A stretch of 64,000 nucleotides of DNA from Nonomuraea sp. SBT364 (GTDB lineage Bacteria; Actinomycetota; Actinomycetes; Streptosporangiales; Streptosporangiaceae). Shown piece after piece: positions 28,561 through 63,980 of the stretch. Both the position numbers and the translations under genes were made by a program. Each line of letters starts with the position of its first letter. Within the stretch, counting starts at the first letter, position 1. The DNA is taken from positions 1 to 64,000 of the forward strand of contig NZ_LAVL01000023.1 of the NCBI RefSeq assembly GCF_001083785.1, given 5' to 3'. A model generated the notes under the pieces. It had not been told where the DNA came from. It worked only from the letters and a program-made list of their open reading frames with translations, and did not search any database.

Positions 28561-28576
28561 TCTCAGACGCCCAGCA

Positions 28577-28603: not shown

Positions 28604-28644
28604 ACTACACACCGTCACAACAACCGCCCCGAAGGGAGCCCCCG

Positions 28645-39048: not shown

Positions 39049-40122
39049 ATGGCGGCACCGTGGTACTGCACTCGCGAGGACGTGAAGCGGGCGTTGGACG
39101 TCAAGGAGACCGCGCGCAGCAACGCGCAGGTCGACCGCGCCATCGACTCCGCCTCGCGCACCGTCGAGGGCAGGTTGCATCGCCGCTTCTACCCGGAGAC
39201 CGCCACCCGCACCTTCGACTGGCCGAACGCGCAGCGGGCCCGCCCGTGGCGGCTGTGGCTGGACCAGCACGAGCTCGCCTCGGTGACCACCCTTATGGCG
39301 GGCGGGGTGACGGTCGCCTCCAGCGACTTCCTGCTGTATCCGACGGGCGGCCCGCCGTACAACAGGCTAGAGATCGACCTCGACTCCTCCGCCGCGTTCG
39401 CCAGCGGGGACACCCACCAGCAGGCCATCTCCATCGCCGGCGTGTACGCGGGCTGCCCGCTCGACGAGGCCCCGGCCGGCGCCCTCGCTGAGGCGCTCGA
39501 CGCCTCCGAGACGAGCGTGGACGTCACGGACGCCGCGGCGGTCGGGGTGGGCGACATTCTGCGCGTCGGTACGGAGCGGATGATCGTCACCGGTCGGGCG
39601 ATGCTCGACACCGGGCAGAACATCGCCGCCGACCTGACGGCGTCGAACGCGTCCGTCACCGTGACTGTGACGGACGGCACCGCCTACGCGGTGGATGAGG
39701 TGCTGCTGGTCGGGTCGGAGCGGATGCTCGTGGTGGACGTCGCGGGCAACGACCTCACCGTGCGCAGGGCGTGGGACGGCAGCGTGCTGGCCGCGCACAC
39801 CGCGGGGGCGGACGTGTATGCGCCGCGCACGCTGACCGTGACGCGGGGGGCGCTCGGCACGACAGCGGCCGCGCACGACACGGCTGCCGCGGTGGTCCGG
39901 CATCTGGTGCCCGGCCTGGTGCGTGACGCTGTCGTGGCGTTGGCGTTGGCGCAACTGCTGGGCGAGCAGGGCGGCTACACGGCGGCGGGCGCCCGGTCGG
40001 CGGCGTCGGGGTCGGTGGCCGGGTCGCGTCCGCAGTCCCGGCAGGTGGGCGGCGGCGCGGGCGACGTGCTGGCCATGGCCTTCGACGCGTACGGCCGCAA
40101 GGCCCGCACGAGGGCGGTCTGA
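39049..40122 (+). CDS. Head-tail connector (adaptor) protein
   Basis: 357 residues. The N-terminal 100 residues (WYCTREDVKRALDVKETARS, DRAIDSASRTVEGRLHRRFY) fit the gp6/DnaT-like adaptor pattern. The middle has two similar beta units (VGVGDILRVGTERMIVT and VDEVLLVGSERMLVVDV), apparently inserted. The C-terminal part resumes with a helical element (VRDAVVALALAQLLGEQGGY). This makes it longer than ordinary adaptors (about 100-130 residues). AGGAGG ribosome site upstream. Confidence 0.75.
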   Translation: MAAPWYCTREDVKRALDVKETARSNAQVDRAIDSASRTVEGRLHRRFYPETATRTFDWPNAQRARPWRLWLDQHELASVTTLMAGGVTVASSDFLLYPTGGPPYNRLEIDLDSSAAFASGDTHQQAISIAGVYAGCPLDEAPAGALAEALDASETSVDVTDAAAVGVGDILRVGTERMIVTGRAMLDTGQNIAADLTASNASVTVTVTDGTAYAVDEVLLVGSERMLVVDVAGNDLTVRRAWDGSVLAAHTAGADVYAPRTLTVTRGALGTTAAAHDTAAAVVRHLVPGLVRDAVVALALAQLLGEQGGYTAAGARSAASGSVAGSRPQSRQVGGGAGDVLAMAFDAYGRKARTRAV

Positions 40123-44296: not shown

Positions 44297-44448
44297 CGCA
44301 CGCGAGGTGGGTGCTGCGGCAGTGCGAACGCTTCGGCTGCCTGCCCGGCGCCTTGATGCAGGAAGACGCAGGACTACTCAAGCTCCTGCGGCTGGAGGAA
44401 ATGGCTGGACCGGAGCCCAGGGAGGAGGTGAGCTGGCTTGGCGAATGA
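43865..44448 (+). CDS. Tail assembly chaperone GT (product of -1 frameshift)
   Basis: Frame 0 is read from 43865 to 44215, then -1 from 44215 to 44448, predicted 194 residues. The T part has RELTHARWVLRQCERFGCLP and LMQEDAGLLKLLRLEEMAGP, with no good start of its own. The T stop overlaps the tape measure start, as usual. GT helps load tube protein on the tape measure during tail assembly. Confidence 0.8.
44209..44215 (+). promoter_or_regulatory. Programmed -1 frameshift slippery site
   Basis: C CCT TTG in the G reading frame fits the X XXY YYZ rule exactly (CCC then TTT), so both tRNAs can re-pair in the -1 frame. It lies 78 bases before the G stop codon. GC-rich DNA downstream could fold as a stimulator. 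Confidence 0.8.
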
Positions 44449-51985: not shown

Positions 51986-52124
51986 GGATTCAGAAGCCGA
52001 CCTGGTCGCCGCCAAGGTGGACCGGCATCCGACCGGGCCCACCGAGCCCGACGAGGAGGCCGTGCTGCGCCGCCTGTACGGCGACCCGGACGCGGACGGC
52101 GTGTATCGCGGGCGGCCGTCGTGA
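51975..52124 (+). CDS. Small acidic phage protein before the endolysin
   Basis: 49 residues from ATG 51975 (GGAAGGAG upstream). HEDSEADLVAAKVDRHPTGP and LRRLYGDPDADGVYRG. Its stop overlaps the endolysin start (GTGA). Unknown role. Confidence 0.55.
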   Translation: MRHEDSEADLVAAKVDRHPTGPTEPDEEAVLRRLYGDPDADGVYRGRPS

Positions 52125-52885
52125 GCGCCCAGTCGATGCTGGCGCAGATGGAGAAGGCGCTCGGCTGGGGTGAGCCGAATCCGGTGCACCGCTGGTACGG
52201 GTCCCGCAACGGCTCCTACTTCGCGCTCGGCAGCACGCCGTGGTGTCAGATGACCATCACGTGGGCCGCTCACCTGTCCGGCAACTACGCCGCCGTCTGC
52301 CCGCACGGCGACCGCGCCTACACGGTGTGGTCGGCGGAGGACGGCGAGCGGCTCGGCCGCTGGCACGCCGGCACGGTCGCCAACATCCTCCGCCACGCGA
52401 AGCCGGGGGCGATCGTCTACATGGACTGGGGCGGCAGCAACGACCCCGACGCGGTCGACCACGTCGGCATCGTCGAGCAGGTGCTCGGCGACGGCCGGGT
52501 CCAAACCATCGAGGGCAACACCGGCAACCAGTGCAAGCGGCGCGTCCGTGGCGCCGGGGACATCGCGGGGTTCTGGAACCCGCCGTACGAGGAGGACGAC
52601 ATGACACGTGACGAGATCTACAAGGCGGCATGGGAGACCGACACGATGCCGGTCCCGTACGCCACCGAGGCGAACCCGACCTGGAAGCCCCGCAGCGTGC
52701 TGGTCGACCACGGCGTGAAGCTCCGTCAGATCCTGGCCCAGCTCGACGCGCAGAACGCCACCATCCGCGAGCTCGTCGCCGTGCTCGCGCAGCGCGATGA
52801 CGAGATCGACGTCGAGGCGCTCGTCGCACGGATCCGGTCGGAGATCGAGCAGGTCACGATCCGGCTCGACGTCGCAGACGCCTGA
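52121..52885 (+). CDS. CHAP-type endolysin
   Basis: 254 residues from GTG 52121. Residues ~1-160 are a CHAP/NlpC-like cysteine peptidase: STPWCQMTITWAAH (Cys42), DAVDHVGIVEQV (His114) and TIEGNTGN (polar third residue). The C-terminal ~90 residues (after FWNPPYEEDDMTRDE) are helical and acidic with a leucine-rich end and could bind wall or oligomerise. It cleaves peptidoglycan cross-bridges or stem peptides at lysis. No signal peptide, so it needs a holin. Confidence 0.82.
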   Translation: MSAQSMLAQMEKALGWGEPNPVHRWYGSRNGSYFALGSTPWCQMTITWAAHLSGNYAAVCPHGDRAYTVWSAEDGERLGRWHAGTVANILRHAKPGAIVYMDWGGSNDPDAVDHVGIVEQVLGDGRVQTIEGNTGNQCKRRVRGAGDIAGFWNPPYEEDDMTRDEIYKAAWETDTMPVPYATEANPTWKPRSVLVDHGVKLRQILAQLDAQNATIRELVAVLAQRDDEIDVEALVARIRSEIEQVTIRLDVADA

Positions 52886-52957: not shown

Positions 52958-53233
52958 ATGACACACACCCCGTACCCCGTCCCGGTCTCCGTCCGCTACC
53001 CGCTCATGGTGCGCGGGGCGGTCGCCCTCGTCGCCATGGGGCTCGCCAGGCTCGGCATCGCCCTCGGCTGGATCCCGCCCGAATGGGAGCTCACCGAGTC
53101 CGGTGTCGAGCAGCTCTTCGACGCCGCCCTGTTCGCGTGGGCGTGGTTCACGTCGCAGCGGAAGACCACCCCGGTCGCGGACCCGCGCGACAACCGCGGC
53201 CGCCCGCTCGTGGTTGCGGTTCGGGACGAGTAG
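52958..53233 (+). CDS. Holin-like small membrane protein
   Basis: 91 residues (AAGGAGG upstream). Two hydrophobic segments (about 12-37 and 52-68) around GWIPPEWELTESGVEQLFD, ending in a charged tail. The size and topology fit class II phage holins. Last gene of the rightward block. Confidence 0.65.
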   Translation: MTHTPYPVPVSVRYPLMVRGAVALVAMGLARLGIALGWIPPEWELTESGVEQLFDAALFAWAWFTSQRKTTPVADPRDNRGRPLVVAVRDE

Positions 53234-53469: not shown

Positions 53470-53952
53470 TCAGATGGCGGCCTTCACCTTGTACGCCTGC
53501 TGCGGGGATGGCTGCTCTCCGGCGCGGAGAGCGTGCCGGAGATAGATCCACACCTTCGCGCCGGAGTGGAACGCGACCTCGATGGCGTGCTCGGGCGGCG
53601 AGTTGGGGGCCATCACCTGCACCGCCGAGATTTCCTTGCTGCCCGCGTTGGTAATGGCTGCGGCCAGGAAAGCGCCGACGTCGGCGACTCGGACGCCGTT
53701 GGATGTGTCGAGGTGCACGGGCGGGACCGCTGGGAGTGGGTCCCCTTCGACGATCTCCTCGGGCACGCTGTAGTCGTTGGCGCCGGGGGCTGCTGAGCCG
53801 ATGGTGGTGAGCATCAGCCGGGCTCCGCTGGCGAGGGTGACTTCGACGGCGTTGTCGAGTCTGGGGTCGTCGGCGGGGATGCGTACGCCGGTGATGGCCG
53901 GGCTGCCTGTGAGCATGGTTTGCAGGGTGGCCTGGAACCTCATCGGGCGCAT
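53470..53952 (-). CDS. Phage protein of unknown function
   Basis: 160 residues. FQATLQTMLTGSPAITGVRI, PEEIVEGDPLPAVPPVHLDT and PEHAIEVAFHSGAKVWIYLR, mixed alpha/beta, no known motif. Last gene of the leftward operon. Confidence 0.55.
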   Translation of the reverse strand: MRPMRFQATLQTMLTGSPAITGVRIPADDPRLDNAVEVTLASGARLMLTTIGSAAPGANDYSVPEEIVEGDPLPAVPPVHLDTSNGVRVADVGAFLAAAITNAGSKEISAVQVMAPNSPPEHAIEVAFHSGAKVWIYLRHALRAGEQPSPQQAYKVKAAI

Positions 53953-54013
53953 GCGCTGTCTCCTCGCGTGTGGTCGGGTGCGTGTGCGAGGCTACCGGGC
54001 TGGGGCGGCCGGT

Positions 54014-54310
54014 TCATCGCGACATTCCCCGATCAGCATCGAGGGCCAGGTCGTACAGCCGGTCAGCCTCGTCGCCGCCGAGCCGCTCGTAGGCGCCGTC
54101 GATGCCGTCGGCGAACAGGCTCGCTGCGTGGTCGCAGGCGGCGGCCTTGTCGAGGGCCTTGAGCACGGGGTGGGACAAGTAGCGGGCCGGGTAGTGCTGG
54201 CGGGCGTACGCGCTGCCGTCGCTCTCAACCTTGGCCAGGTGTAGGAGTGCGCAGCCCTTGTCGAGGTCGGTCATGGTCTCCCAGGTGGGGAGCGCGGGCG
54301 GGTTGGTCAT
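54014..54310 (-). CDS. Small phage protein
   Basis: 98 residues, helical and acidic: WETMTDLDKGCALLHLAKVE, YPARYLSHPVLKALDK, GDEADRLYDLALD. Resembles unnamed actinophage early proteins. Function unknown. Confidence 0.55.
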   Translation of the reverse strand: MTNPPALPTWETMTDLDKGCALLHLAKVESDGSAYARQHYPARYLSHPVLKALDKAAACDHAASLFADGIDGAYERLGGDEADRLYDLALDADRGMSR

Positions 54311-54341
54311 CGTGTTCTCCGTTCTGCGTCGTCGTCCTGGC

Positions 54342-54569
54342 CTAGCTCCACATCAGGTCATGCACCTTGGCCGGGTCCTTCTGCGCCAGCAGGGCGAGCT
54401 GCAGGTGCGTCATCCCGGCCTTCTGGGCGCCCTCCCACACGAGCCTGGGGGACGCGGCGCCGACCATGAGTTGGAGGATGTCGGCGCAGTACAGCGCCAT
54501 CGCGCCCGCGTCGTCGGCGTTCGCGTTGCCGACCTTCCGGGCCGCCGCTAGGGCCTTCTCGTACGTCAT
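54342..54569 (-). CDS. Small phage protein
   Basis: 75 residues from ATG 54569: MTYEKALAAARKVGNANADD, then a helical tail with KDPAKVHDLMWS. Stands five bases after the next upstream gene. Unknown function. Confidence 0.5.
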   Translation of the reverse strand: MTYEKALAAARKVGNANADDAGAMALYCADILQLMVGAASPRLVWEGAQKAGMTHLQLALLAQKDPAKVHDLMWS

Positions 54570-54574
54570 GCCGC

Positions 54575-54766
54575 TCACCGTCCGTGCCGCTTGTCGATCA
54601 GCGCGAAGTACTCGGGCGTCCCGAACTCCGGGCAGTCGCACGGGCTGTGCCTGCACAGCACGCAACGCGGGCTGCTGGTCTTGCCGGACGCGTAGTCGTC
54701 GAAGTCGGGCGACCACTTCGCGCCGAGCTGGTCGAGGACTTCCTTGGCGGTCTTGGGCTTGCTCAT
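54575..54766 (-). CDS. Small zinc-binding-type phage protein
   Basis: 63 residues with CVLCRHSPCDCPEFG, a Cys4 pattern in a compact loop, and KTAKEVLDQLGAKWSPDFDD. AAGGAG before the ATG. Unknown function. Confidence 0.5.
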   Translation of the reverse strand: MSKPKTAKEVLDQLGAKWSPDFDDYASGKTSSPRCVLCRHSPCDCPEFGTPEYFALIDKRHGR

Positions 54767-54834
54767 GAAGGGCTCCTTCCTGGTGGGTGGCTATGCGACG
54801 GAAGAGGGCGGACGGCCCATGTCCGGGCCAGGAC

Positions 54835-54999
54835 TTACCGGAAGCGGATGCGCAAGGTCCAGTCGTGGCCCTGCCCGCACGCGCACATGGTGACGTCCTT
54901 GTGCGCGCCTTCCGTGAGCCCGGCGGGCCAGGTGAACGTCGCCTCGCGCCTGCACTTCTGGCAGGTGGCCCGCTGGACGTGAGGCTTGGTGGTGCGCAT
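54835..54999 (-). CDS. Small zinc-ribbon phage protein
   Basis: 54 residues from ATG 54999 (GGAGAGGAG just upstream). Pairs CQKCRRE and CACGQGHDW suggest a single zinc ribbon. Ends with a TAA, a rare stop in this genome. Unknown function. Confidence 0.55.
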   Translation of the reverse strand: MRTTKPHVQRATCQKCRREATFTWPAGLTEGAHKDVTMCACGQGHDWTLRIRFR

Positions 55000-55067
55000 C
55001 TCCTCTCCTTCCACTGGTCGTGATGGGGCGGGTGGCCCGGCCGCGCCAGGACCGGGCCACCCGTGCG

Positions 55068-55340
55068 CTAGGCGGAGACGGCCTGCTTGAACCCGGCGCC
55101 CGCCTTGAACGCGGGCACGTGCTTGGCCTCGACGTGGACGGTGCCGCCCTGCGGGGTGCGCCGCTCGCCGCCCTTGCGCGGGCGGCGCTCGAACGACCCG
55201 AACCCGATGATCTGGACGGTGTCGCCAGCGGCGACCGCCTCCTGCACCGTGTCGAGCGTCGCGGCGATGATGGCGGCCACGTCCGCCTTGCTGCGGCCGG
55301 TGGAGGCGGCGACGGCGTCGATGAGCTGGGTCTTGTTCAT
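55068..55340 (-). CDS. HU-family DNA-binding protein
   Basis: 90 residues, full-length HU fold: MNKTQLIDAVAASTGRSKAD, IIGFGSFERRPRKG (the arm base) and VPAFKAGAGFKQAV. It lacks the long Lys/Ala tail of mycobacterial and actinomycete host HupB/HupS. It bends DNA; in a phage it could aid integration, replication or packaging. Confidence 0.9.
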   Translation of the reverse strand: MNKTQLIDAVAASTGRSKADVAAIIAATLDTVQEAVAAGDTVQIIGFGSFERRPRKGGERRTPQGGTVHVEAKHVPAFKAGAGFKQAVSA

Positions 55341-55445
55341 GTGGTGCTCTCTTCCTGTGGGTGGGTTACGTCCGTTCCCTATGACCGGTCGCCCCGGGCA
55401 CCCCGCCCGCCCGGTGCGGCGGACGGAGCACCCCGAACGGCCGGG

Positions 55446-55838
55446 TCAGGAAGCCGCCTCGACGGCAGCCCAGTACGCCTCATCCAGGTACGACACGACC
55501 GCCAGACGGCCGCCATGCACCTCGGCGACGTGCTTCTCAGCCGACCGGCGCGCCGCGCGGTCGGTCTTGTAGTGGCTGGCAGTCATCCGGCACCCACCGC
55601 ACCGCCACGCCGTCTCGTCAGGATCGCGGTACGGGTTGGCCCAGATGTCGAGGCCGAACCCCCACACGACCATCCCGGCCGGGACAGTGACGGTGGCGGC
55701 CAGCCGACGAACAAGAGGTTCCACGAGCTCCTGCCGCCCGTGGACCGCCTCGTCGAAGAGGGTGCGCGCCTTGTCGAGGTTGCGGGCGTGGAGCGCGTCG
55801 GTGATGGCCTCCACGGCGGCGGCCAGACGCCCGGTCAC
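55446..55838 (-). CDS. Phage protein with helical N-terminus and zinc-type motif
   Basis: 130 residues from GTG 55838. The N-terminal ~55 residues are helical (ITDALHARNLDKARTLFDEA); the C-terminal part has WRCGGCRMTASHYKTD with H-x4-H-like spacing (EKHVAEVHGG), perhaps a C2H2 site. Overlaps the upstream small gene (GTGA). Unknown function. Confidence 0.55.
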   Translation of the reverse strand: MTGRLAAAVEAITDALHARNLDKARTLFDEAVHGRQELVEPLVRRLAATVTVPAGMVVWGFGLDIWANPYRDPDETAWRCGGCRMTASHYKTDRAARRSAEKHVAEVHGGRLAVVSYLDEAYWAAVEAAS

Positions 55839-55987
55839 CGCGCACCTGCCATCACGATCGGGTTGGCGGGGGCGTGGTGCTCGGTGTCGAGGTCGGCGGC
55901 GTAGACGGTGCGCCGGCAGGCGGCGCACCGGTAGACGATGGGACCGCCGTCGAGCGCCGTCGTGCAGCGCGGGCAGGTGGCGGCCAT
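55835..55987 (-). CDS. Small Cys4 zinc-ribbon phage protein
   Basis: 50 residues from ATG 55987. MAATCPRCTTALDG and YRCAACRRTVYAADL give two CxxC knuckles 17 residues apart, a rubredoxin-like zinc ribbon. Overlaps both neighbours (ATGA and GTGA). Confidence 0.6.
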   Translation of the reverse strand: MAATCPRCTTALDGGPIVYRCAACRRTVYAADLDTEHHAPANPIVMAGAR

Positions 55988-56169
55988 CAGAGGGCCCTAC
56001 AGGTCAGCGCATGATTCGCGGCCTGCGAGGGATACGCTGTGTCGCTCGCGCCGCAACCGTCGCACTTGAAGCCCCCCCAGGGGTTCTTGTCGTTCTCCTC
56101 CCACCCGGCGGCCCTCTTCCAGGTGACGATGTTTCCGCCGACGGTCTTGTACTTGAGCTCGCTCTTCAT
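55987..56169 (-). CDS. Small phage protein with CxxC
   Basis: 60 residues: KTVGGNIVTWKRAAGWEEND, GGFKCDGCGASD, AANHALTCRAL; Cys and His near the end could complete a zinc site. Typical actinophage/AICE small protein. GGAGA ribosome site. Confidence 0.55.
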   Translation of the reverse strand: MKSELKYKTVGGNIVTWKRAAGWEENDKNPWGGFKCDGCGASDTAYPSQAANHALTCRAL

Positions 56170-56224
56170 GGACGTCTCCTTGCTCGTGGGGTGGAGCGCT
56201 CTGCTCCGTCGAACTGGTGGGGGT

Positions 56225-56407
56225 TTACTGGTCGGCTTCCTGCGGGCCGCGCGCCAACATCACGATCACGCTGACCGCCAGCACGCCGGTCGCTACCAGC
56301 GCCGCCACGGCGAACGGCACCTGGCCGGAGAACGCGAGGCCGAGCGTGGCCAGCGAGCCGACGACGACCACGACGCCGATCGCGGCGACCTTCGCGAACA
56401 CGGCCAT
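56225..56407 (-). CDS. Small two-span membrane protein
   Basis: 60 residues from ATG 56407, which overlaps the preceding stop (TGATG). Two hydrophobic segments (about 5-24 and 30-50) and a charged end. Unknown; small membrane proteins are common in AICE transfer operons. Confidence 0.5.
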   Translation of the reverse strand: MAVFAKVAAIGVVVVVGSLATLGLAFSGQVPFAVAALVATGVLAVSVIVMLARGPQEADQ

Positions 56408-56625
56408 CAGCGCCACCCCTTGACCGCACGGTCCGCGGAGTCCCGCATGAGCTGCTTCGCCTTGCGCGGCCCAACCTCGGCGATGAGCTCCCGCCGGGCG
56501 CGCTGCTTGTCGGCGCGGGTGACGCCGAACCCGTTCGCGACGTCGGCGGTCTGGTTGCGCTTGTTGGTGGCCTGGCCCTGCCCCCTGGCGCGGGCGAGCA
56601 TCTCGGGCGGCATCCGGTCACGCAT
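56407..56625 (-). CDS. Small basic phage/AICE protein
   Basis: 72 residues from ATG 56625 (AGGAGA upstream). Basic and helical: MPPEMLARARGQGQATNKRN, GFGVTRADKQRARRELIAEV. Possibly nucleic-acid binding. First gene after the operator-like cluster. Confidence 0.5.
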   Translation of the reverse strand: MRDRMPPEMLARARGQGQATNKRNQTADVANGFGVTRADKQRARRELIAEVGPRKAKQLMRDSADRAVKGWR

Positions 56626-56817
56626 GGTTGTCTCCTGTCCCGGTGGGGTGTGTGGGGAATACGGGAGCGGCTGCTCCGGGCGGCCCTCCAGAAGGTCTGG
56701 AGAGCCGGCCGCAACCACCCGCTCAGCGGTCTACGGAGGCGTCCTCTTGGAGGCGATTTCTCGGGGCTAGATCGCCGCCTGAGCGGCCCCTGAATCTAGA
56801 CATTTCGCCCCTGAGAT

Positions 56818-56834
56818 TTAGGCGATCCGCCTAA
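56818..56834. promoter_or_regulatory. Operator-like dyad in the leftward operon
   Basis: TTAGGCG-ATC-CGCCTAA is a perfect 7-3-7 dyad. An imperfect second one (CGCCTAA TCCG TTAGGGCG) overlaps it at 56828-56846. They lie in a 280-base gap (56626-56905) before the small-gene operon that starts at 56625, together with two related CAGGGGC direct repeats (on the minus strand). Probably a control region for the downstream half of the operon. Confidence 0.5.
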
Positions 56835-56865
56835 TCCGTTAGGGCGCTTCGACCTGGGAAAACAT

Positions 56866-56886
56866 CCCGCTAGGAGGGCTAGCGGG
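56866..56886 (-). terminator. Rho-independent terminator after the translocase gene
   Basis: CCCGCTAG (56866-56873) and CTAGCGGG (56879-56886) with a 5-base loop; on the minus strand the stem is followed by ATGTTTTCCC, a T-run. Located 20 bases past the translocase stop. Confidence 0.7.
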
Positions 56887-56905
56887 GGTCGCGGAGGCGA
56901 CGGGA

Positions 56906-58912
56906 TCAGCGCCTGTGGAGCCGGTTGAGCGCCTCGGTGAATCCCGACCGGGTGTAGCCCTGCCGGTTGGCCCCCGAGCCGCGCCCATCGCTGATCCACA
57001 CCTGGCCCGGCGCGACCCCGTACGGGCGCAGCAGCCTGGCCAGCTCAGCCGGGTCGTCGACCAGGTGCGCCCACGTCTGATCCTTCGCCAGGCGGGGCAG
57101 CAGTTCGGAGGTCCAAATCTTCTCCGCCTCGCCGCACGCCGCGACGCACGCCTCCAGCAGCATCCGGCCCGGATGCGTATCGGTGACCGGCAGAGTGCCG
57201 GCGGACTCACGCAGCTTGTACGCCGTCCTCGCCAGCCGGGTCACGTCCGGATCGTCGAGGAACCCCGTCCGGCCGGTCACCGGCGTAGACCCCTCGGCGA
57301 ACAGCAGACCGGAACCGCGCTGGCTCGCGTCGATGAGCTGCGCATTGTGTCCCCGCGACGCCCAGCCCTGGCCCAGAATCATGTCGCTGGCCTGCGGCGT
57401 GTTGCAGCGCAGCGCGAGCCGGATCGAGAGCAGGTCCCGCAATTCGGTGTCCACCACCTTGCCGGACGGCCGCTGCGTGGCCGCGCTGGTGAACTTCCCG
57501 ACGTACCGGCCACGCGAGACGTGATCCCGCAACGCCTCGGTGATCTTCGCGCCGAACTCGGGATGCGTCGTAAAGTACGCCAGCTCATCGACATGCAGCA
57601 GCGACATCGACCAGCCCAGTTCCTCCGCCAACTCCTTCGTCAGCTTCTTGACCCGCAGCTTCGCGAGTTGCGCGCCCTTCTCCTCCATGTCCTCGATCGA
57701 CTCCTGGATCATCTCCAGCAGCGCCTCCGGGTCCGGCCGCAGCACCGACCGGTGAGCCAGATCCTCGTAATCGAGCAGGTCGACACCCTTGCCGTCGGCC
57801 AGCCACAGCTCCACGCTCGGGTCCAGCGCGGCAAAACAGAGCAGGATGTTGCAGGCGACCGACTTGCCGGCTTCCGGCTCTCCGCCGACGAGCAGGGACC
57901 GGCCCGGCATGGAGAACCCCATCGGGGCGCCGCGCACGGTCAGGCCGAGCGGCACCCGCTCCGTCCACACGTCCACGGGCGTCGTGCGGCCCTTCAGCTC
58001 GCAGTCCACCTTCGGCGCGCTGAGCGGGTCTCGGTCAGGCGACCACAGCCGTACACGCCCCTCGTGGTCAGGGACCTTGTCCACGTACAGGCGGGACAAG
58101 CCGCGACCAGACGCCGCCGCCAGCCTCGCGCGCTGCTTCAACGCCTCGTCATAGGTTCCGCCGCCAGGCAGCTCGACCTCGCACATCCACGCGATGGCGT
58201 CGCGGACCACGCCAGGCGCGATCACCTTCACGTCCTCGATCCGCTTCGCCAGCTTGGCGGCCACGAACAACCTGCGCACGGCCTTGCTATTCGGGTGGGT
58301 GCCGATCCCGCGCACCACCTCGTCATCGGCGGCGACGGCGTTCTCGGCTCGGCGGCGCATCACGAACTCCGCCGCGCCGCCGGCAGACGCCGTGACGCCG
58401 AGCAGGATCGCGGGGGCGCCCCACCACGGCCAGTCCATGAACAGCCACAGGCCCAGATCACCGAGCAGGCCCGCAGCGAGCGCACCCAGCGACACCTTGC
58501 GCCGGCGAGCGCGCTCCTGTGCGACGAACTCCGGCTTCGACGCCAGCGCCTGCTCATGGTCGGCGGCGGTCACCCACCGCCACCAGGCGCCGGCCGCCCG
58601 GCCGAGCCCGATCGACCCGTAGGCGACGCTGGCGCGGGTGGCCTTCGCCCCCACCCGCAGCAGCCCGCCGTGCTCGTGCCGGATGACGTCCACCTGCCGG
58701 GCGATCGGCGCGGTGACGACGGTGATGGTGCGGCGGGGGGACCAGACGCGGGTCGGCTCAATCGGCGTGACATCGGCGTGCCCGAGTAGGGCGAGCTCGT
58801 GGCCGTCCGGCATGTCCTCCTCCTGTTCCGGGTCGTCGGGGTGGGGCGGGTAGAGCGGCGGGGCGTCCTCCGGCTTGGGGACGATCCGGAGGCGGCGTTC
58901 GGGCTGGTTCAC
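56906..58912 (-). CDS. TraB/FtsK-SpoIIIE-type DNA translocase
   Basis: 668 residues from GTG 58912. Hydrophobic region at ~141-178 anchors it in the membrane. The motor has Walker A GGEPEAGKS (343-351), DGKGVDLLDY, Walker B SLLHVDELAYF and the ATQRPS sensor loop, then a C-terminal winged-helix-like end (GYTRSGFTEALNRL). This layout is closest to TraB/TraSA of Streptomyces plasmids and AICEs, which move double-stranded DNA between hyphae. Some actinophages also encode FtsK-like proteins. Overlaps the small membrane gene upstream by four bases. Confidence 0.85.
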   Translation of the reverse strand: MNQPERRLRIVPKPEDAPPLYPPHPDDPEQEEDMPDGHELALLGHADVTPIEPTRVWSPRRTITVVTAPIARQVDVIRHEHGGLLRVGAKATRASVAYGSIGLGRAAGAWWRWVTAADHEQALASKPEFVAQERARRRKVSLGALAAGLLGDLGLWLFMDWPWWGAPAILLGVTASAGGAAEFVMRRRAENAVAADDEVVRGIGTHPNSKAVRRLFVAAKLAKRIEDVKVIAPGVVRDAIAWMCEVELPGGGTYDEALKQRARLAAASGRGLSRLYVDKVPDHEGRVRLWSPDRDPLSAPKVDCELKGRTTPVDVWTERVPLGLTVRGAPMGFSMPGRSLLVGGEPEAGKSVACNILLCFAALDPSVELWLADGKGVDLLDYEDLAHRSVLRPDPEALLEMIQESIEDMEEKGAQLAKLRVKKLTKELAEELGWSMSLLHVDELAYFTTHPEFGAKITEALRDHVSRGRYVGKFTSAATQRPSGKVVDTELRDLLSIRLALRCNTPQASDMILGQGWASRGHNAQLIDASQRGSGLLFAEGSTPVTGRTGFLDDPDVTRLARTAYKLRESAGTLPVTDTHPGRMLLEACVAACGEAEKIWTSELLPRLAKDQTWAHLVDDPAELARLLRPYGVAPGQVWISDGRGSGANRQGYTRSGFTEALNRLHRR

Positions 58913-59223
58913 GCTCGTATCTCCAAGCGGTTGATGCGCACCGGGTTGAGCGCGACAGCGGCGGCGAGCCAACTCGCGCCTCCCGCGACTGCGAGGAGCA
59001 GGTGGTAGAGGCCGGTCCTCATGGCCGCGACCAGGATGACCAGGACCACGCCGGCGACGGCTTGGATGGCGAGCCAGGCGACGCGCCGTAGTCCGGCCGC
59101 GCGGAGGGCGGCGAGGGCTTGGCTGGGTGTGGGGGTGGTTTCGGGTGTCGGGACGTCGGGGCGGACGGCACACAGGGCCAAGCCGATGCCAGCGAAGAGG
59201 GCGAGGAGAACGATGGCAGTCAT
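58909..59223 (-). CDS. Small three-span membrane protein beside the translocase
   Basis: 104 residues from ATG 59223. Hydrophobic segments about 3-18, 47-66 and 73-92. Placed between the DUF2637 gene and the translocase with four-base or smaller gaps, as Spd-type spread proteins are in Streptomyces plasmids. Function inferred from context. Confidence 0.6.
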   Translation of the reverse strand: MTAIVLLALFAGIGLALCAVRPDVPTPETTPTPSQALAALRAAGLRRVAWLAIQAVAGVVLVILVAAMRTGLYHLLLAVAGGASWLAAAVALNPVRINRLEIRA

Positions 59224-59225
59224 GG

Positions 59226-60422
59226 TCAGCCCCGCTTCCTGGACTGGAGCGCATGCCGGGTCCGGCCGTCCATGTCGGCCTGCCACTCGCGCGCCTTCTT
59301 GGCCCCGTACTGGGGCGAGCACTTGCCGACAGTGGCCAGCTCGGCACCGGACGGGATACGCCGCTCGACCTCGACAACCTTCTGCCAGTGCGCCCACATG
59401 GCGGGCGTGGCGCCGGTTTCATCGCTGGTTTCGATCGGGGTTTCATCGGCGGTTTCATCCGCGCGCCCGTCCGTGATCTCCGCAGACGTCTCCTGGGCGT
59501 CGCCGGGCAGCAACTCCAGGACGGCGAGCGCATCCGACTGCGCCCGAATCAGGGTGGCCTGCGCGGCGGCGAGGTCTCCGCGCGCCCGGCCCGCCATCCG
59601 GTCGGCGTCCGCGAGGATGCGGTCGCGGTGCATGCCCAGCATCGCGGCGGCGGGCGACTGCTCGCTGTACCGGACGGCCCAGCGGAGCGCCTGCCACGTC
59701 TCCCGACGCCACAGCAGCCAGCGCAGCCCAGAAAACTTGGGGGCGCGCGGGTCGATGAGCCCTTGCGCGCGCAGCACCTGCCGGTGCTGGTGCCGGGAGT
59801 GGATGGCCCACAGCCACGGCGACAGCACGCTGGCCGCGCCGAACATGACGGCCAGGTCGCTCAACGACCAGTCCGGCGAGTAGTGGTGGTAGTTGAGCGC
59901 GCCCACGCCGCCGGCGATCCCGTAGGAGGCGAGCCGCAGCCGCATCACCGAGTCGCCTTCGATGAGGGCGACGTGGGCGTGGTAGCCGACGTAGATGGCG
60001 ATCGACTCGATGACCGCCGCGGCGCCGAGCGCGCCCAGCAGCGGCCAGCCGAACGGATCGGCCTGGAAGGCTGTGACCTGGCCCATGATGGCGACGACGT
60101 TGACGCCGACGATGGCGCCGACGAGGACGAAGGCGTGCCACCAGCGCTGTGCGCGGGCCTGCCAGGCGGCGATCCGCTCGCGGCGTTCGGCGCTGCTGCG
60201 AGTCTTGCGGTCGCGCTTCCGTTCGGCGCGGAGCTGGTCGCGTTCGGCGGCCCACTTCTCCTGGTCGCGCTCGCGGGCGCGGCGGGCCTCCTCCCGGATC
60301 CGGTCACGCTCGACGCGGGCGAGCTCGTCGGCGGCCTGCCGTTCGGCGCGCGACATCTTGGCGGGCGGCGGGTGGGCGGCCGGGTGGCTGCCGTTCACCC
60401 GCTCGGGCTGAATCGTGTCCAT
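59226..60422 (-). CDS. DUF2637 (Spd/Pra-like) membrane protein
   Basis: 398 residues. A highly charged helical N-terminus (about 22-90: RAERQAADELARVERDRIRE) is followed by a DUF2637 core with four hydrophobic segments (about 97-117, 128-147, 164-178, 187-206), including GYHAHVALIEGDSVMRLRLA and NYHHYSPDWS. The C-terminal cytoplasmic part is acidic with a TDE-T repeat (ETADETPIETSDET). DUF2637 proteins accompany TraB-type translocases on AICEs and plasmids and are linked to DNA spreading between mycelial compartments. Confidence 0.8.
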   Translation of the reverse strand: MDTIQPERVNGSHPAAHPPPAKMSRAERQAADELARVERDRIREEARRARERDQEKWAAERDQLRAERKRDRKTRSSAERRERIAAWQARAQRWWHAFVLVGAIVGVNVVAIMGQVTAFQADPFGWPLLGALGAAAVIESIAIYVGYHAHVALIEGDSVMRLRLASYGIAGGVGALNYHHYSPDWSLSDLAVMFGAASVLSPWLWAIHSRHQHRQVLRAQGLIDPRAPKFSGLRWLLWRRETWQALRWAVRYSEQSPAAAMLGMHRDRILADADRMAGRARGDLAAAQATLIRAQSDALAVLELLPGDAQETSAEITDGRADETADETPIETSDETGATPAMWAHWQKVVEVERRIPSGAELATVGKCSPQYGAKKAREWQADMDGRTRHALQSRKRG

Positions 60423-60533
60423 GGCTCTGCTTTCTGGTCTGTGGGGTTGGTCGAGGTTGGCGCCCGCCCCCGGCTCGCTCCTGGGGGATGCCGGCTGCCT
60501 GGCGGCTCCGGTCGGGCTGCGGCTGTCAGGGCG

Positions 60534-60848
60534 CTACAGACTGAGGGCGCCGCGAATCTTGTCGTCGAAGTACTCGCTGATAAGGGGCGTGTCGCCGTAT
60601 CCGTCGACGACCTCACGGAGGGCCTCGTCCCACGCCTCCTTGCTGAGGTGCGAGTACGCCGGGTCGCTGGCCATGGCGGCGAACACCTGGGGGGCTTCTT
60701 GGAGGGCTTCGCTCATCTTCTGGAGGAGCAGGCCGTCCAGGATCGCCTCGATGTCGGCGGCGGTGTCTTGGCCGAACTCGTGGTCTCTCCAGCAGTCCGC
60801 TGCGGGCTGGTAGGCGGGCAGGGGCGGCATTCCGGGCTTTCCGAACAT
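60534..60848 (-). CDS. Small acidic phage/AICE protein
   Basis: 104 residues. ADCWRDHEFGQDTAADIEAI, LQKMSEALQEAPQVFAAMAS, acidic and helical. Unknown. A 111-base gap follows before the DUF2637 gene, without visible signals. Confidence 0.5.
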   Translation of the reverse strand: MFGKPGMPPLPAYQPAADCWRDHEFGQDTAADIEAILDGLLLQKMSEALQEAPQVFAAMASDPAYSHLSKEAWDEALREVVDGYGDTPLISEYFDDKIRGALSL

Positions 60849-60891
60849 GGGTGTTCCTCCGTTGTGTTTGCTCCGGGCGGGCTGGTTGGGG

Positions 60892-61074
60892 CTAGCGGCG
60901 GTACCAGGGGATGTTCTTCTCGGCGTCGAGCACGGCCCTGTTCAGGCGCCGGTATTTGGGGGTCTCCTCGCGGATGCCCGCCGCCTCCTCCCGCTCCTGG
61001 TTCGCGTGCAGCGAGGCGAGCGCGTCCTTGTACTTCTTGACGGCGGCCCTCTGCTCGTCCTTGCTCTGGCCCAT
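60892..61074 (-). CDS. Small charged helical protein
   Basis: 60 residues: MGQSKDEQRAAVKKYKDALA, then NREREEA-type charge and PKYRRLNRAVLDAEKNIPWY. Similar short proteins recur in actinomycete mobile elements. GGAGAA ribosome site. Confidence 0.5.
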   Translation of the reverse strand: MGQSKDEQRAAVKKYKDALASLHANQEREEAAGIREETPKYRRLNRAVLDAEKNIPWYRR

Positions 61075-61107
61075 GTGGTTCTCCTTCAGTCGGTCGGGCT
61101 CGGTGGA

Positions 61108-61251
61108 TCAGAGGCGGTTGACGGCGGCCTGCATCTCGGCAAGCTCGGCGTCCACCAGGGCGAGCAGATCCTCAGCCGCCGTCAGCCGCGCCCGCTCCGT
61201 CGCGACGGCGGACCGCTCGACTTCGAGCAGCGCGCCCTCAACGCCGGTCAC
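61108..61251 (-). CDS. Small helical protein
   Basis: 47 residues from GTG 61251, heptad-like and acidic (LEVERSAVATERARLTAAED). Starts inside the previous gene's end (GTGA). Too short for family assignment. Confidence 0.4.
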   Translation of the reverse strand: MTGVEGALLEVERSAVATERARLTAAEDLLALVDAELAEMQAAVNRL

Positions 61252-61364
61252 CGCTTGTCCAGCGGCTTCGACGGGGTGGACTTGGCCGGCATCGCAGAGT
61301 CGTGCTTGTTCAGGTTCTTGAGCTTCTTGGCGAGCTCTTCCGCCTTGTCCTTCGGCGGCGTCAC
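61248..61364 (-). CDS. Very small lysine-rich protein
   Basis: 38 residues from GTG 61364: MTPPKDKAEELAKKLKNLNK and PSKPLDKR. Overlaps both neighbours by four bases, the pattern of real translational coupling. Unknown. Confidence 0.4.
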   Translation of the reverse strand: MTPPKDKAEELAKKLKNLNKHDSAMPAKSTPSKPLDKR

Positions 61365-61507
61365 CGCTTGCCCGCCTTGCTGTCGCACTTCGTGCAACCC
61401 GGGTGCGTGCAACCGCTCCGGTCCATCAGCGGACGCGTGCCAGCCGGCCGCTTCGCGTTCGCCTTCAGCGTCTTGTCGAGCGTCTTCAACGCCTCGTCCG
61501 CGGTCAT
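61361..61507 (-). CDS. Small basic protein with CxxC-type cluster
   Basis: 48 residues from ATG 61507, directly after the upstream stop. SGCTHPGCTKCDSKAG has three Cys and a His in 11 residues, a likely metal site. Unknown function. Confidence 0.45.
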   Translation of the reverse strand: MTADEALKTLDKTLKANAKRPAGTRPLMDRSGCTHPGCTKCDSKAGKR

Positions 61508-61825
61508 TCACGCCACCGCCTGCGCGGCGCGGGCCCGGGTGACCGCGGACAGGATCGCCACGGCGTACGCCTCCGCCTCCTCCAGCGACACCGGCACGAA
61601 CCGGTTCCCCGTCTCGTCGTGCAGCGTCACCAGCGGGTCCAACCCGTCCAACTGCGACAGGTCGACGAGCTGCAGCGGCGCCAACTCGGTCGGGATGCTG
61701 GCGACGGGCGTCCAGTGGCTGCGCTGGCCGGCGGGCTCGCCGTCGTGGTCGGACGTGCACCAGGTGGGGCACGGCTGCTCCGGCATGCGCGGGAGCGGGA
61801 CGAACATCGTCGTAGACTCGGACAC
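61508..61825 (-). CDS. DUF6907-like protein
   Basis: 105 residues. The N-terminus CPTWCTSDHDGEPAGQRSHW matches a short actinomycete family with C-P-x-W-C and D-H motifs, followed by LVTLHDETGNRFVPVSLEEA and a helix. Common on Streptomyces-type mobile elements and chromosomes; function not known. Confidence 0.65.
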   Translation of the reverse strand: MSESTTMFVPLPRMPEQPCPTWCTSDHDGEPAGQRSHWTPVASIPTELAPLQLVDLSQLDGLDPLVTLHDETGNRFVPVSLEEAEAYAVAILSAVTRARAAQAVA

Positions 61826-61865
61826 AGATCTCTCCTCCTGGGCGACAGGTGGGTGTGGATCGGAT

Positions 61866-61898
61866 CCCGGGTCAGGCGTTCGCAGCGCCTGACCCGGG
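61866..61898. terminator. Internal terminator in the leftward block
   Basis: CCCGGGTCAGGCG (61866-61878) and CGCCTGACCCGGG (61886-61898), 13 perfect pairs, 7-base loop. It lies 12 bases after the stop of the membrane gene (61910) in leftward direction, dividing the operon in two. Confidence 0.7.
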
Positions 61899-61909
61899 CG
61901 TTTCTGGAG

Positions 61910-62074
61910 CTAGGCGAGGACCTTGCCGAGGAAGATGGCGAGCTGGTCGGCGCCGTGCAGGATGCCGTCGAACGCGCCGTTGACGGCGCCCGCGGCCTGG
62001 GCGGGGCGGGTGAACAGGAAGAACAGCACGAAGATGACGGCGAGCCACGTGAGCGGCTTCTTGAAGCGGGACAT
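61910..62074 (-). CDS. Small single-span membrane or secreted protein
   Basis: 54 residues from ATG 62074. MSRFKKPLTWLAVIFVLFFL is a basic N-terminus plus hydrophobic core; FTRPAQAAG could be a signal-peptidase site. The remainder is AVNGAFDGILHGADQLAIFL. Similar 50-60-residue proteins are common in AICE operons. Unknown. Confidence 0.55.
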   Translation of the reverse strand: MSRFKKPLTWLAVIFVLFFLFTRPAQAAGAVNGAFDGILHGADQLAIFLGKVLA

Positions 62075-62123
62075 GCTCGGTCCTTTCCGAGGACAAATGG
62101 TTGAAGGCCGGGATGAGGTCGAC

Positions 62124-62282
62124 TCAAATGCGCTCGACCGCGAAGGTGAAGCCGGGGGCGGGGAACCGGAGGTGGAGCTTGGTGACCCTGTCCTCCATTG
62201 CGGGCGCGGTGGCGACCCGCTCGAAGTAGACGAAGTCGCTGCGCTGGCCGTCCTCGACCTGGTAGACGGTGATTCCGAACAT
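62124..62282 (-). CDS. Small protein of unknown function
   Basis: 52 residues from ATG 62282: FGITVYQVEDGQRSDFVYFE and LHLRFPAPGFTFAVERI, an alpha/beta mini-domain. CAGGAGG-like ribosome site (ACCGGAGGTCC). Second gene of the early operon. Confidence 0.5.
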   Translation of the reverse strand: MFGITVYQVEDGQRSDFVYFERVATAPAMEDRVTKLHLRFPAPGFTFAVERI

Positions 62283-62296
62283 GACAGGACCTCCGG

Positions 62297-62677
62297 TCAG
62301 GCCGCGCGACGGGCGGGAGCGGCGGTGAGGATGGCGACGGCGGCGCGGTGGTAGCACTGGTGCTTGCCGCGCTGTCCGGCCGGGCAAGTGCAGCCGGAGG
62401 CGTGCACGAGGTAAGTGACGGTGCCGTCGGACGAGACGGCGGTGTAGGTGCCGGGCCGCTTGGTGGGGAGGATGGCGCCCTGCTCGATCAGCTCGCGCGC
62501 CCGGTCGACCTGGTTGGGCTTGAACTCGTCGAGGTTGACCTCGACGGCGATAGCCCACCGGCCGCCGGTCTTGACGGCGTCGAGCCGGCCGGTCTGGGCC
62601 CAGCGGCGGATGGTGCGCGGGGAGACGCTGTAGGCGGTGGCCGCCTCGCGGCTGCTGATCGAGATAGGCTGGACCAT
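62297..62677 (-). CDS. HTH protein with SWIM-type zinc finger
   Basis: 126 residues from ATG 62677 (AGGAGGAGG upstream). N-terminal MerR/excisionase-type helix-turn-helix (SSREAATAYSVSPRTIRRWA, RLDAVKTGGRWAI). C-terminal SWIM finger ASGCTCPAGQRGKHQCYHRA (CxC-x9-CxH). First gene of the leftward operon, facing the operator repeats, so it probably acts as excisionase and/or early regulator. This domain pairing is uncommon. Confidence 0.7.
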   Translation of the reverse strand: MVQPISISSREAATAYSVSPRTIRRWAQTGRLDAVKTGGRWAIAVEVNLDEFKPNQVDRARELIEQGAILPTKRPGTYTAVSSDGTVTYLVHASGCTCPAGQRGKHQCYHRAAVAILTAAPARRAA

Positions 62678-62786
62678 TGGGTCCTCCTCCTGTTGACGCA
62701 GGTGGTGGATCAAGGCCCGTTCCGGTGTTGACGCACCGGGGCGGGCCGTCTTGCTTGGTCGAACAAGCACAACCGTACCCACCACA

Positions 62787-62848
62787 GGTGCACCCGTCAA
62801 GCTGATCGGTGCACCCATTTTCAGCGCGCCCCCGACACCGGTACACTT
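62787..62848. promoter_or_regulatory. Operator repeats in the divergent control region
   Basis: GGTGCACCC at 62787 and 62808 are 21 bases apart (two turns); a third related site GGTACACTT at 62840 is 32 bases further (three turns) and touches the start region of the rightward HTH gene. GGTGCACC is itself palindromic. Sits between divergent genes starting at 62677 and 62855, so it is the likely lysogeny or transfer switch. Confidence 0.6.
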
Positions 62849-62854
62849 GAGCAC

Positions 62855-63082
62855 ATGACCGACACCCCGCCGCGCCCCCGACCGCTCGCCATGAGCGACA
62901 TAGCCGCCCTGCTCGGCGTCAGCACCAACACCGTCAACGCCTGGCGCAAACGAGCCGCCGGCGCCAAACAGGTCGAACCGCTCCCCCCGCCGGCCGGGAA
63001 AGTCGCCACCAAAACCGACTACTGGTGGGAAGACGACATCGTCGAATGGGCACGCCGCACCGGCCGACTCAAGGAAGCGTGA
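62855..63082 (+). CDS. Small HTH DNA-binding protein
   Basis: 75 residues. MSDIAALLGVSTNTVNAWRK is a helix-turn-helix of the excisionase/MerR type; DYWWEDDIVEWARRTGRL is the second-helix/wing part. May bind the adjacent repeats. Sits on the opposite strand from the HTH-SWIM gene. Confidence 0.7.
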   Translation: MTDTPPRPRPLAMSDIAALLGVSTNTVNAWRKRAAGAKQVEPLPPPAGKVATKTDYWWEDDIVEWARRTGRLKEA

Positions 63083-63098
63083 GCCGACGCGACACCGC

Positions 63099-63122
63099 GC
63101 CCCGCGAGACACCTCGCGGGGC
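63099..63122 (+). terminator. Hairpin after the small HTH gene
   Basis: GCCCCGCGAG (63099-63108) and CTCGCGGGGC (63113-63122), 10 perfect pairs around ACAC, 17 bases past the stop. Confidence 0.7.
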
Positions 63123-63239
63123 GTTCCGCATCCCACCGACAGCGCGGCGACCTGCCGCAACGAACCCATGCTTCAAGCCAACCGCCCACACCGCGCGACC
63201 GCATGGGCAGCAGCACGCCGACCCAGCACCCCTCGCCAG

Positions 63240-63280
63240 AGCTAACCGAACGGCGATAGTGCCACAACCACCAGTTAGCT
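63240..63280. promoter_or_regulatory. Inverted repeat upstream of the HTH-Nudix gene
   Basis: AGCTAAC (63240-63246) and GTTAGCT (63274-63280) are inverted arms 27 bases apart, 50 bases before the HTH-Nudix start. The second arm runs into a TAGCTAGC palindrome. A regulator-binding site is likely in this 247-base gap; otherwise the gap shows nothing but the preceding hairpin. Confidence 0.4.
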
Positions 63281-63329
63281 AGCATCAGGGCTCACCCGCC
63301 AGCCCTGGACAGCCCACCAAGGGACACCC

Positions 63330-63980
63330 ATGGAAGTCGTGGACCGCTGGACCGGCCGCCACGCGGCCGCCCTCCAAGCCGCCCTGAGGATGACGCACGA
63401 CGAGTTCGCCGAACGCCTCGGCGTCGGTCGGCGCACCGTCGCCTACTGGCATGGCAACCAGGACGCAACACCACGCCCAGAGCTGCAGCGCGCCCTTGAC
63501 ACACTGCTCGACCGCACGACCTCGGGCGAACGCGCGCGCTTCGCCCACCAGCTCAACGACGCCGCACGCCCCACCGGCGAACCCGTCGCACTCACCGTCG
63601 CCATCGCCGTCGTCGTACGCGGCGGCGACGTCCTCCTCGTCTGCCGCCGCGACGACGCAGCTGGCCTTCGCTGGCAGTTCGTCGCCGGCATGGTGAAACC
63701 AGGCCAGCAGCCCGACAGCGTCGCCGTCCGCGAAACGTTGGCCGAGACCGGCATCCACTGCACCGTGCAAGAGCACCTCGGCGGCCGACTCCACCCGGTC
63801 ACCGGCGTCCGCTGCGAGTACTACCTCGCCGCCTACCTGGCCGGCGAAGTCGAGAACCGGGACGCCGACGAAAACGTGTCCGTGATCTGGGTGCCGCGTG
63901 ACCAGCTCACGAAGTTCGTCGCCGCTAACCTGATCTACCCGCCGGTCCTGCACGCCCTGGAGAAAGAGCACAGCCCGTGA
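63330..63980 (+). CDS. HTH-Nudix protein, Pif-like
   Basis: 216 residues. Residues ~10-70 are an XRE-like HTH (LRMTHDEFAERLGVGRRTVA). Residues ~85-210 are a Nudix fold (AVVVRGGDVLLVCRRDD, then the box GMVKPGQQPDSVAVRETLAE). In the box, two consensus acidic positions are changed (Q in place of the first E; A in place of the first E of EE). Resembles Pif of pSAM2, a Nudix protein that prevents redundant transfer between hyphae. Overlaps the next start (GTGA). Confidence 0.75.
   Translation: MEVVDRWTGRHAAALQAALRMTHDEFAERLGVGRRTVAYWHGNQDATPRPELQRALDTLLDRTTSGERARFAHQLNDAARPTGEPVALTVAIAVVVRGGDVLLVCRRDDAAGLRWQFVAGMVKPGQQPDSVAVRETLAETGIHCTVQEHLGGRLHPVTGVRCEYYLAAYLAGEVENRDADENVSVIWVPRDQLTKFVAANLIYPPVLHALEKEHSP

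Follow-up and report, generated by a model that had tools for sequence, protein, structure and literature searches.

Conjugation within and between mycelia and propagation as a virion are different routes for DNA, and the question raised here is whether one prophage combines them. The window analysed comprises bases 1–64000 of contig C155 (87,291 bp; NZ_LAVL01000023.1) in the 9.98 Mb genome of Nonomuraea sp. SBT364. In it, siphovirus genes are followed by the gene of a TraB/FtsK-like translocase, called traB below, and by genes of predicted membrane proteins; a preliminary description had taken the translocase and membrane proteins, with a Pif-like HTH-Nudix protein, for a transfer module resembling those of actinomycete integrative and conjugative elements (AICEs). 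Comparison of the sequences suggests that a temperate siphovirus prophage lies in the window, with a conjugation or spread cassette of the TraB–SpdB2 type on its right arm. We give this reading a probability of about 0.6. Below, G000 denotes the source genome, G017 Nonomuraea turkmeniaca (its element is L037), and G106, G118, G127, G130 and G134 are IMG/VR records.

Phage genes and the putative transfer cassette

The siphovirus head–tail–lysis genes, recognised by PHROG and Pfam matches, occupy 30.8–53.2 kb on the plus strand (Table 1). The markers of a siphovirus prophage (Caudoviricetes), namely terminase, portal, capsid, tape measure protein and endolysin, are all present. The genes are colinear with those of G127 (57.7 kb), G118, G106 and G130 (52–58 kb), and their lengths are similar to those in G127. 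IMG/VR itself lists positions 28645–63980 of C155 as a single virus record of 35,336 bp. The preliminary description spoke of full siphovirus structural and lysis genes. They do exist, but outside the coordinates it quoted, and "full" overstates the case, as there is no early left arm.

The cassette is transcribed on the minus strand in the order Spd-like gene, gene of a 104-aa membrane protein, traB. The middle gene starts 2 nt past the Spd-like stop codon, and its own stop overlaps the GTG start of traB (GTGA). The translocase has an FtsK_SpoIIIE domain (PF01580, E = 2.4e-10) with Walker A (GEPEAGKS) and Walker B (LLHVDE) motifs, that is, the ATPase features looked for in a TraB. The small membrane partners proposed earlier are also present: the 104-aa protein and two more recognised by eye. 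Divergent to the spd–traB run, with several small genes between, are an HTH-Nudix gene, a second Nudix gene and, past the end of the window, a GntR-like gene. With the corresponding pair of G118, the HTH-Nudix protein shares 58% identity over 210 aa. Its NUDIX match is strong and its HTH match weak; it shares the NUDIX domain with Pif of pSAM2, so that the name "Pif-like" can be kept by domain only.

The traB reading frame is open. Compared with the 72% identical homologue of N. turkmeniaca, dN is 0.22 and dS is 0.78 (dN/dS about 0.28, NG86), and traB is under purifying selection.

Kinship of the translocase

The translocase query (P0001), which began at 58939, matched 96 plasmid records in a tblastn search, the best of them from Streptomyces; identity to the core of pSVH1 TraB is 43.6% (E = 3e-61). 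Among 50,697 phage records there were three weak matches, the best with E = 1e-6. The closest protein is the N. turkmeniaca homologue, and the TraB of phage record G134 is 59% identical.

Two trees were constructed, one of 63 proteins and one of 60 under a mixture model. Five TraB-like proteins shorter than 350 aa were omitted from both, and the second further lacks WXIN, JCM17656 and L187; the FtsK-like matches of G130, G114, G115 and G131 were left out. L203, L204 and L220, labelled as AICE by eye in the trees, are unclear in the array test described below. The window protein, G017 and G134 form a clade that is sister to the pSVH1/pFP11 group of five Streptomyces-plasmid TraBs (ultrafast bootstrap 100; 99/99 in the mixture-model tree). 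The window protein thus groups with the experimentally known TraB of pSVH1. Another clade is composed of the FtsK proteins of isolated phages (Hiyaa, Galactica, P1312, pZL12, PIS136) and that of G127. Placing the window trio with this clade was rejected by the approximately unbiased test (p-AU = 0.015), and with it an ordinary phage FtsK; this value is not absolute, as the group was named after the tree had been viewed and long branches are in play. Nesting among phage-only FtsK proteins, named in the preliminary description as fatal to its proposal, is therefore not what the trees give, though the two closest proteins belong to a phage record (G134) and to a possible phage (G017).

Phage-borne copies are scattered over the tree. 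L206, from a prophage of genome G015, falls among AICE proteins, L222, from a prophage of G079, groups with a plasmid, and so does the TraB of G118, on long branches. The prophage label changes six times, all six changes being forced by starred branches, and the phage versus non-phage label, with the isolated phages and pPaSha2 counted as phage, changes seven times. This scatter and the six to seven changes point to repeated exchange between conjugative elements and phages, to which we assign no direction.

The SpdB2-like partner

The gene upstream of the 104-aa one had been described as encoding a Spd-like protein with DUF2637. A profile was built of four members, the window protein and three phage proteins that we chose as similar (25–29% identity), one of which weakly matches DUF2637. 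Aligned to the SpdB2 family (pSVH1/pFP11), it gave an hhalign probability of 95.8% (E = 8e-9) over 99 columns of the membrane part. By this profile kinship and its position upstream of traB, the gene is SpdB2-like; the Spd part of the description stands, but the Pfam part does not (see below).

The protein encoded at this position in G134 and in G017 has a membrane part without similarity to SpdB2. The C-terminal 77 residues of the G017 protein (L037:7849–9213) are 71% identical to the window protein, and the profile agrees. To judge from these alignments, the proteins of the window and of L037 are related by a domain swap, their membrane parts being unrelated. The SpdB-like protein matches 94 phage records, all of them from Streptomyces (raw counts, without per-host denominators), which fits a mycelial role.

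Repeat arrays downstream of traB

TraB of Streptomyces plasmids binds 8-bp TraB recognition sequences (TRS) at clt, as stated in a passage of PMC4170104. In the 200 bp 3' of each traB, the commonest 8-mer (one mismatch, either strand) was compared with 200 dinucleotide shuffles, and an array was called at 5/200 or fewer, a threshold fixed after a first look at the data. The control, pSVH1, has five copies of GACCCGGA 3' of traB (0/200), which we take to be the published TRS of this plasmid.

Arrays were found in 9 of the 11 phage-associated traB copies, as well as in 20/23 AICE loci (Prim-Pol type, i.e. with a primase–polymerase gene) and 6/9 plasmids. The isolated-phage FtsK genes yielded 0/7, pPaSha2 0/1, and the unclear loci, L221 included, 3/17. 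The phage-associated count is 8/10 if G017 is set aside, its contig having no structural gene and its phage nature being unproven, and 10/12 if L221 (positive; a prophage by eye) is added; L205, an unproven phage, is negative (13/200). The G118 array is negative with one mismatch (26/200) and positive for exact 8-mers (0/60). As a further control, 3' ends of genes other than traB were taken from nine of these loci where they had less than 50% coding (78 of 320), and two of the 78 were positive at 1/40. The array 8-mers differ from clade to clade.

In the window, the 200 bp 3' of traB contains four CTAG motifs, with 0.052 expected per 200 bp on the contig. At least four CTAG per 200 bp are seen in 4 of the 4355 overlapping segments of C155, all at this position. 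CTAG is the array core in the sister G017 and in many AICE copies. The cluster may be read, post hoc, as a candidate degenerate clt.

These data also bear on the suggestion that the translocase serves the upkeep of the lysogen and, like FtsK/SpoIIIE in segregation, moves copies of the prophage or chromosome into spores or compartments when septa form, not from cell to cell. The solved structures matched by sequence are of FtsK only (E = 1e-4), and the isolated-phage FtsK genes, being without 3' arrays, indicate that a phage FtsK need not imply conjugation. However, segregation of an integrated prophage requires neither membership of the plasmid-TraB clade, nor an adjoining SpdB2-like partner, nor the clt-like arrays found in most phage copies, and we regard this explanation as unlikely.

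Recurrence in other genomes and phages

A TraB-like match at E = 1e-20 was found in 47 of the 98 genomes searched. The survey covered 42 loci, that is, 40 fetched ones and contigs C218 and C303 of the source genome. A Prim-Pol gene lies near traB, as in AICEs, in 23 of them, and phage genes are seen in three: L206 and L222 by markers and L221 by eye, L205 being possible. With the window, two loci in G001 and one each in G023 and G035, there are eight prophage loci in seven genomes. Structural or lysis genes of a phage accompany TraB in G001 (two contigs), G023, G035, G015, G038 and G079, and in records G134 and G118; the membrane neighbour of traB in the prophage relatives was recognised by eye only. 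Query A1 matched 7 of 37 viral records and missed the divergent FtsK of G127, which makes the figure an undercount. The TraB of prophage L206 had no match in the phage collection.

The cassette is thus real, recurrent in phages and more general than the preliminary description had it; most likely it would serve conjugation or intramycelial spread, and it probably works like a conjugative TraB system. The combination of genes, earlier considered notable, is less unusual than was thought, as other Nonomuraea prophages have TraB and an adjoining membrane protein, and Hiyaa, Galactica and pZL12 are precedents.

The same survey bears on the possibility that the prophage adjoins an AICE or plasmid remnant, or has been invaded by one, so that two elements without a joint function lie together. 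The module is indeed the rightmost part, adjacent to the GntR-like gene and the chromosome, and no integrase is assignable to either part. However, a similar placement beside lysis and tail genes recurs in other Nonomuraea prophages; in G118 the cassette has the early genes on one side and the terminase on the other, and one end of that record carries an integrase (by eye); and G134 has an HU gene in addition to its TraB. We consider two independent elements very unlikely. An accidental neighbour is unlikely too, given the recurrence in phages.

A gene of a secreted lamin-tail-like protein (by eye) is seen near the lysis end and the cassette in three prophages (G001:C27 43715–44257, G035:C80 9055–9669, L206:13121–13615). 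Close to traB, a two-gene pair, DUF4365-like by eye and a larger protein, is shared by L037 (1059–2806) and the AICE-type L204 (6931–8594), and is possibly a defence or exclusion cassette. The N. turkmeniaca element also has a pair of XRE and HD-phosphohydrolase-like genes, by eye (L037:10678–12366), which resembles the mdp-nud-xre cluster reported for AICEs in a passage of PMC3218068.

The missing left arm and other contrary evidence

A number of observations weigh against a functional TraB–SpdB2-type cassette on a complete prophage. Pfam DUF2637 (PF10935) has no match in the 398-aa window protein at E = 0.1, although it likewise misses the SpdB2 of pSVH1, and it took the four-member profile, rather than the window protein by itself, to obtain the SpdB2 match. 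The putative DNA-reading part at the C-terminus of the translocase aligns poorly with that of pSVH1. The 8-mer array test, suggested by the preliminary description and positive in most phage-associated relatives, is negative in the window itself (86/200), and the CTAG motif was picked after the relatives had been viewed. Phages whose hosts form no mycelium have FtsK-like proteins too (48 Mycobacterium, 12 Bacillus and 5 Listeria records), and the host-lifestyle pattern is therefore only partial.

Further points come from the left end. The long records G127, G118, G106 and G130 have about 20–33 kb upstream of the terminase, and this early left arm is absent from the window. The tyrosine (PF00589) and serine (PF07508) recombinase families have no match on C155, so that the marker of an intact prophage is wanting; among relatives, integrases were recognised by eye in G118, G127 and G134 and by similarity to G118/G127 in G130. 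Neither Prim-Pol nor a plasmid Rep was found on C155, where the queries were pSVH1 Rep and three Prim-Pol seeds, supplemented by Pfam scans of a selection of proteins (no RepSA profile was used). Thus the integrase and primase–polymerase that the preliminary description had proposed to look for did not turn up on this contig. The RecT-like protein of G127 has no match in the SBT364 genome, in a search without a positive control. Finally, a SARP-like regulator gene (named by eye; 27345–28454) is cut at the left edge of the prophage. Its 3' part is the start of another contig (G000:C198:1–1474), and an uncut homologue of 1196 aa is present in G005:C57. A simple insertion was rejected: the left-flank gene and the right flank are not halves of a single gene.

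Since the left arm is absent, the SARP-like gene is cut and no recombinase is matched on C155, the window copy is most likely a prophage truncated on the left side; alternatively, the left end of the window may be misassembled. With the left arm absent, the copy is unlikely to move alone.

It might be argued that the prophage is a decayed remnant and the cassette no more than its passive cargo, especially as there is no integrase or replication marker and the 3' array is degenerate. However, the structural genes are colinear with those of G127 and of similar length, and traB is open and conserved at the dN/dS given above, which makes a decayed remnant distinctly unlikely. Moreover, this explanation concerns the window copy only and is compatible with the TraB–SpdB2 cassette being functional in general: the copy may be the remnant of a working phage type.

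At the left prophage end, TCCCGGAT occurs five times in 28300–28650, the top 8-mer count of the interval 28001–66500 (the maximum in 20 block shuffles is 3–4). A 60 bp core at 28476 is 77% AT, the most AT-rich 60 bp within 27000–66500 of this very GC-rich contig. Iterons TCCCGGATRT flank the core on both sides, and the locus resembles a replication origin or a binding site. As regards replication of its own, as in a phage-plasmid, C155 has this origin-like locus, and no Rep marker was found on it. As a clt, the iterons are disfavoured, because the array is 3' of traB in pSVH1 and its relatives.

Comparison with known elements

The closest parallel is pSVH1, a Streptomyces venezuelae plasmid. 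In common with it, the contig has the TraB kinship, a divergent GntR-like gene and, upstream of traB, one SpdB2-like and one small gene; iterated 8-mers lie directly 3' of traB in pSVH1 and in most phage-associated relatives. In pSVH1, GntR is divergent to a run of small, small, SpdB2, small and TraB genes, while the window has more genes between GntR and the operon. Unlike pSVH1, the window cassette is on a siphovirus prophage, its C-terminal DNA-reading region differs, no plasmid Rep was found, and the candidate array is of the CTAG type and degenerate.

AICEs of the pSAM2 type share the FtsK-type Tra (PF01580), and, according to a passage of PMC3218068, they often carry Nudix genes (Pif). 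The same source defines an AICE by an integrase (Int) plus RepSA, RepAM or Prim-Pol in the same element. The window has phage head–tail–lysis genes, and neither Int nor Rep was found on C155; assignment to the AICEs was therefore rejected. What survives of the earlier AICE-like module is the kinship to plasmid TraB, the pSVH1-like gene order and the clt-like arrays of most phage-associated relatives.

Phage genes together with an FtsK-like gene, a membrane gene and GntR are also known from pZL12/phiZL12 of Streptomyces and phiNon1 of Nonomuraea gerenzanensis. In citing passages and reference titles, pZL12 is a Streptomyces plasmid-phage, conjugative and lytic, and phiNon1, according to part of PMC5431353, replicates by itself, contains a chimeric prophage and is reminiscent of pZL12. 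Both elements replicate as plasmids. The FtsK of pZL12 is in the isolated-phage clade (on a long branch), away from the window TraB, and has no 3' array. An FtsK-like translocase is also found in Streptomyces phages Hiyaa and Galactica, where an SpdB-like membrane protein is near it, and in Thermobifida phage P1312; it belongs to a clade other than that of the window TraB and lacks a significant 3' 8-mer array.

Phage and conjugative life combined are thus known in kind (pZL12); in the present case, phylogeny links the cassette to plasmid-type TraB, and it is recurrent and comes with clt-like arrays. No report of a phage-borne TraB with clt was found among the titles and abstract beginnings listed from the open-licence PMC literature, many subscription papers being outside this search; one paper listed contains both DUF2637 and phage.

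One further element is pPaSha2 of Pseudonocardia alni (L228), a circular plasmid of 42 kb annotated with integrase, DUF2637, FtsK and holin. Its FtsK is in the AICE clade, and it is possibly a plasmid-phage.

Proposed working of the cassette

A GntR repressor would keep the divergent spd–traB run low. On relief, and once the phage DNA is excised and circular, a TraB hexamer in the membrane would bind the clt array that follows traB on it and pump this double-stranded DNA into an adjacent hyphal compartment or a mating partner, this being the presumed direction of transfer. The SpdB2-like and small membrane proteins would form a pore or spread apparatus, and the Nudix pair may serve as a Pif-like exclusion factor. 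In a septate mycelium, the phage genome could in this way spread through cross-walls without virions.

A broader proposal, to which we give somewhat less than an even chance, is that the capture of complete plasmid-type TraB–SpdB–clt cassettes, each with its own 8-mer address, has happened repeatedly in temperate siphophages of actinobacteria that form mycelia, and that these cassettes drive phage DNA through cross-walls and into mating partners. Such phages would then have two dispersal routes, by virions and, without them, by conjugation or spread within the mycelium. Gene transfer by phages and gene transfer by conjugative elements are commonly considered apart, and how a phage genome passes the septa of a multi-compartment hypha is a question little asked. 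Such viruses may spread through a mycelium without virus particles, and every array makes a testable prediction of an address.

Coordinates and additional features

Table 1. Features of the prophage and the putative transfer cassette on contig C155, in order of position
Feature	Position	Strand	Evidence or remark
TCCCGGAT-type iterons around AT-rich core, left prophage end	28376..28605	.	origin-like
phrog_14517 protein, upstream of terminase	28803..30002	+	E 4.5e-39
Terminase large subunit (TerL)	30838..32238	+	phrog_2 E 1.2e-37; 74–81% to four long IMG/VR phage records
Portal protein	33065..35095	+	PF04860 E 8.6e-59
ClpP-like head maturation protease	35092..36102	+	PF00574 E 3.7e-25
Major capsid protein	36021..37475	+	phrog_10 E 7.9e-44
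Head-tail adaptor	39049..40122	+	phrog_442 E 1.2e-9
Tape measure protein	44438..47098	+	58% over 911 aa to G127
Large tail protein phrog_5313	46540..49845	+	E 5e-237 over residues 183–1100
Endolysin	52121..52885	+	phrog_21825 E 9.5e-32
Small membrane protein adjoining endolysin, candidate holin	52958..53233	+	sequence by eye; putative
HU-like DNA-binding protein	55068..55340	-	PF00216 E 1.8e-22; 44% in G134
Small membrane protein	56225–56416		by eye
Candidate degenerate clt	56706..56905	.	200 bp 3' of traB; four CTAG cores and CAGGTC box
TraB-type FtsK/SpoIIIE translocase	56906..58912	-	668 aa from GTG 58912
Small membrane protein between Spd-like gene and traB	58909..59223	-	104 aa; similar start in N. 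turkmeniaca
SpdB2/DUF2637-like membrane protein	59226..60422	-	398 aa; phrog_10376 E 2e-13
Small membrane protein	61910..62074	-	sequence by eye
HTH_17 + SWIM protein	62297..63169	-	64% over 114 aa to G127 55228–55569
Excisionase-like HTH ORF	62855..63082	+	phrog_597 E 5.5e-8; phrog_1553 excisionase 1.3e-4
HTH-Nudix protein, Pif-like by domain only	63330..63980	+	NUDIX E 9.4e-17; weak HTH E 0.005
Second Nudix	63977–64381, past window end		by eye
GntR-like gene	65428–65685 of contig, outside window	+	by eye and similarity to same-place genes in relatives

Some of the gene borders require comment. The true start of the large tail protein is probably later, past the tape measure gene. The HTH_17 + SWIM protein probably starts near codon 165, like its 125-aa homologue in G127, and the excisionase-like ORF overlaps the upstream, probably non-coding, part of that reading frame.

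To the right of the GntR-like gene, an exonuclease/endonuclease/phosphatase-like gene (by eye; L004, C155 66810–67735) is 97% identical to that of another Nonomuraea species (G026:C23). Its flanks are unlike those in G026:C23, as if it had lately moved, and a shortened NhaA-like gene is next to it.

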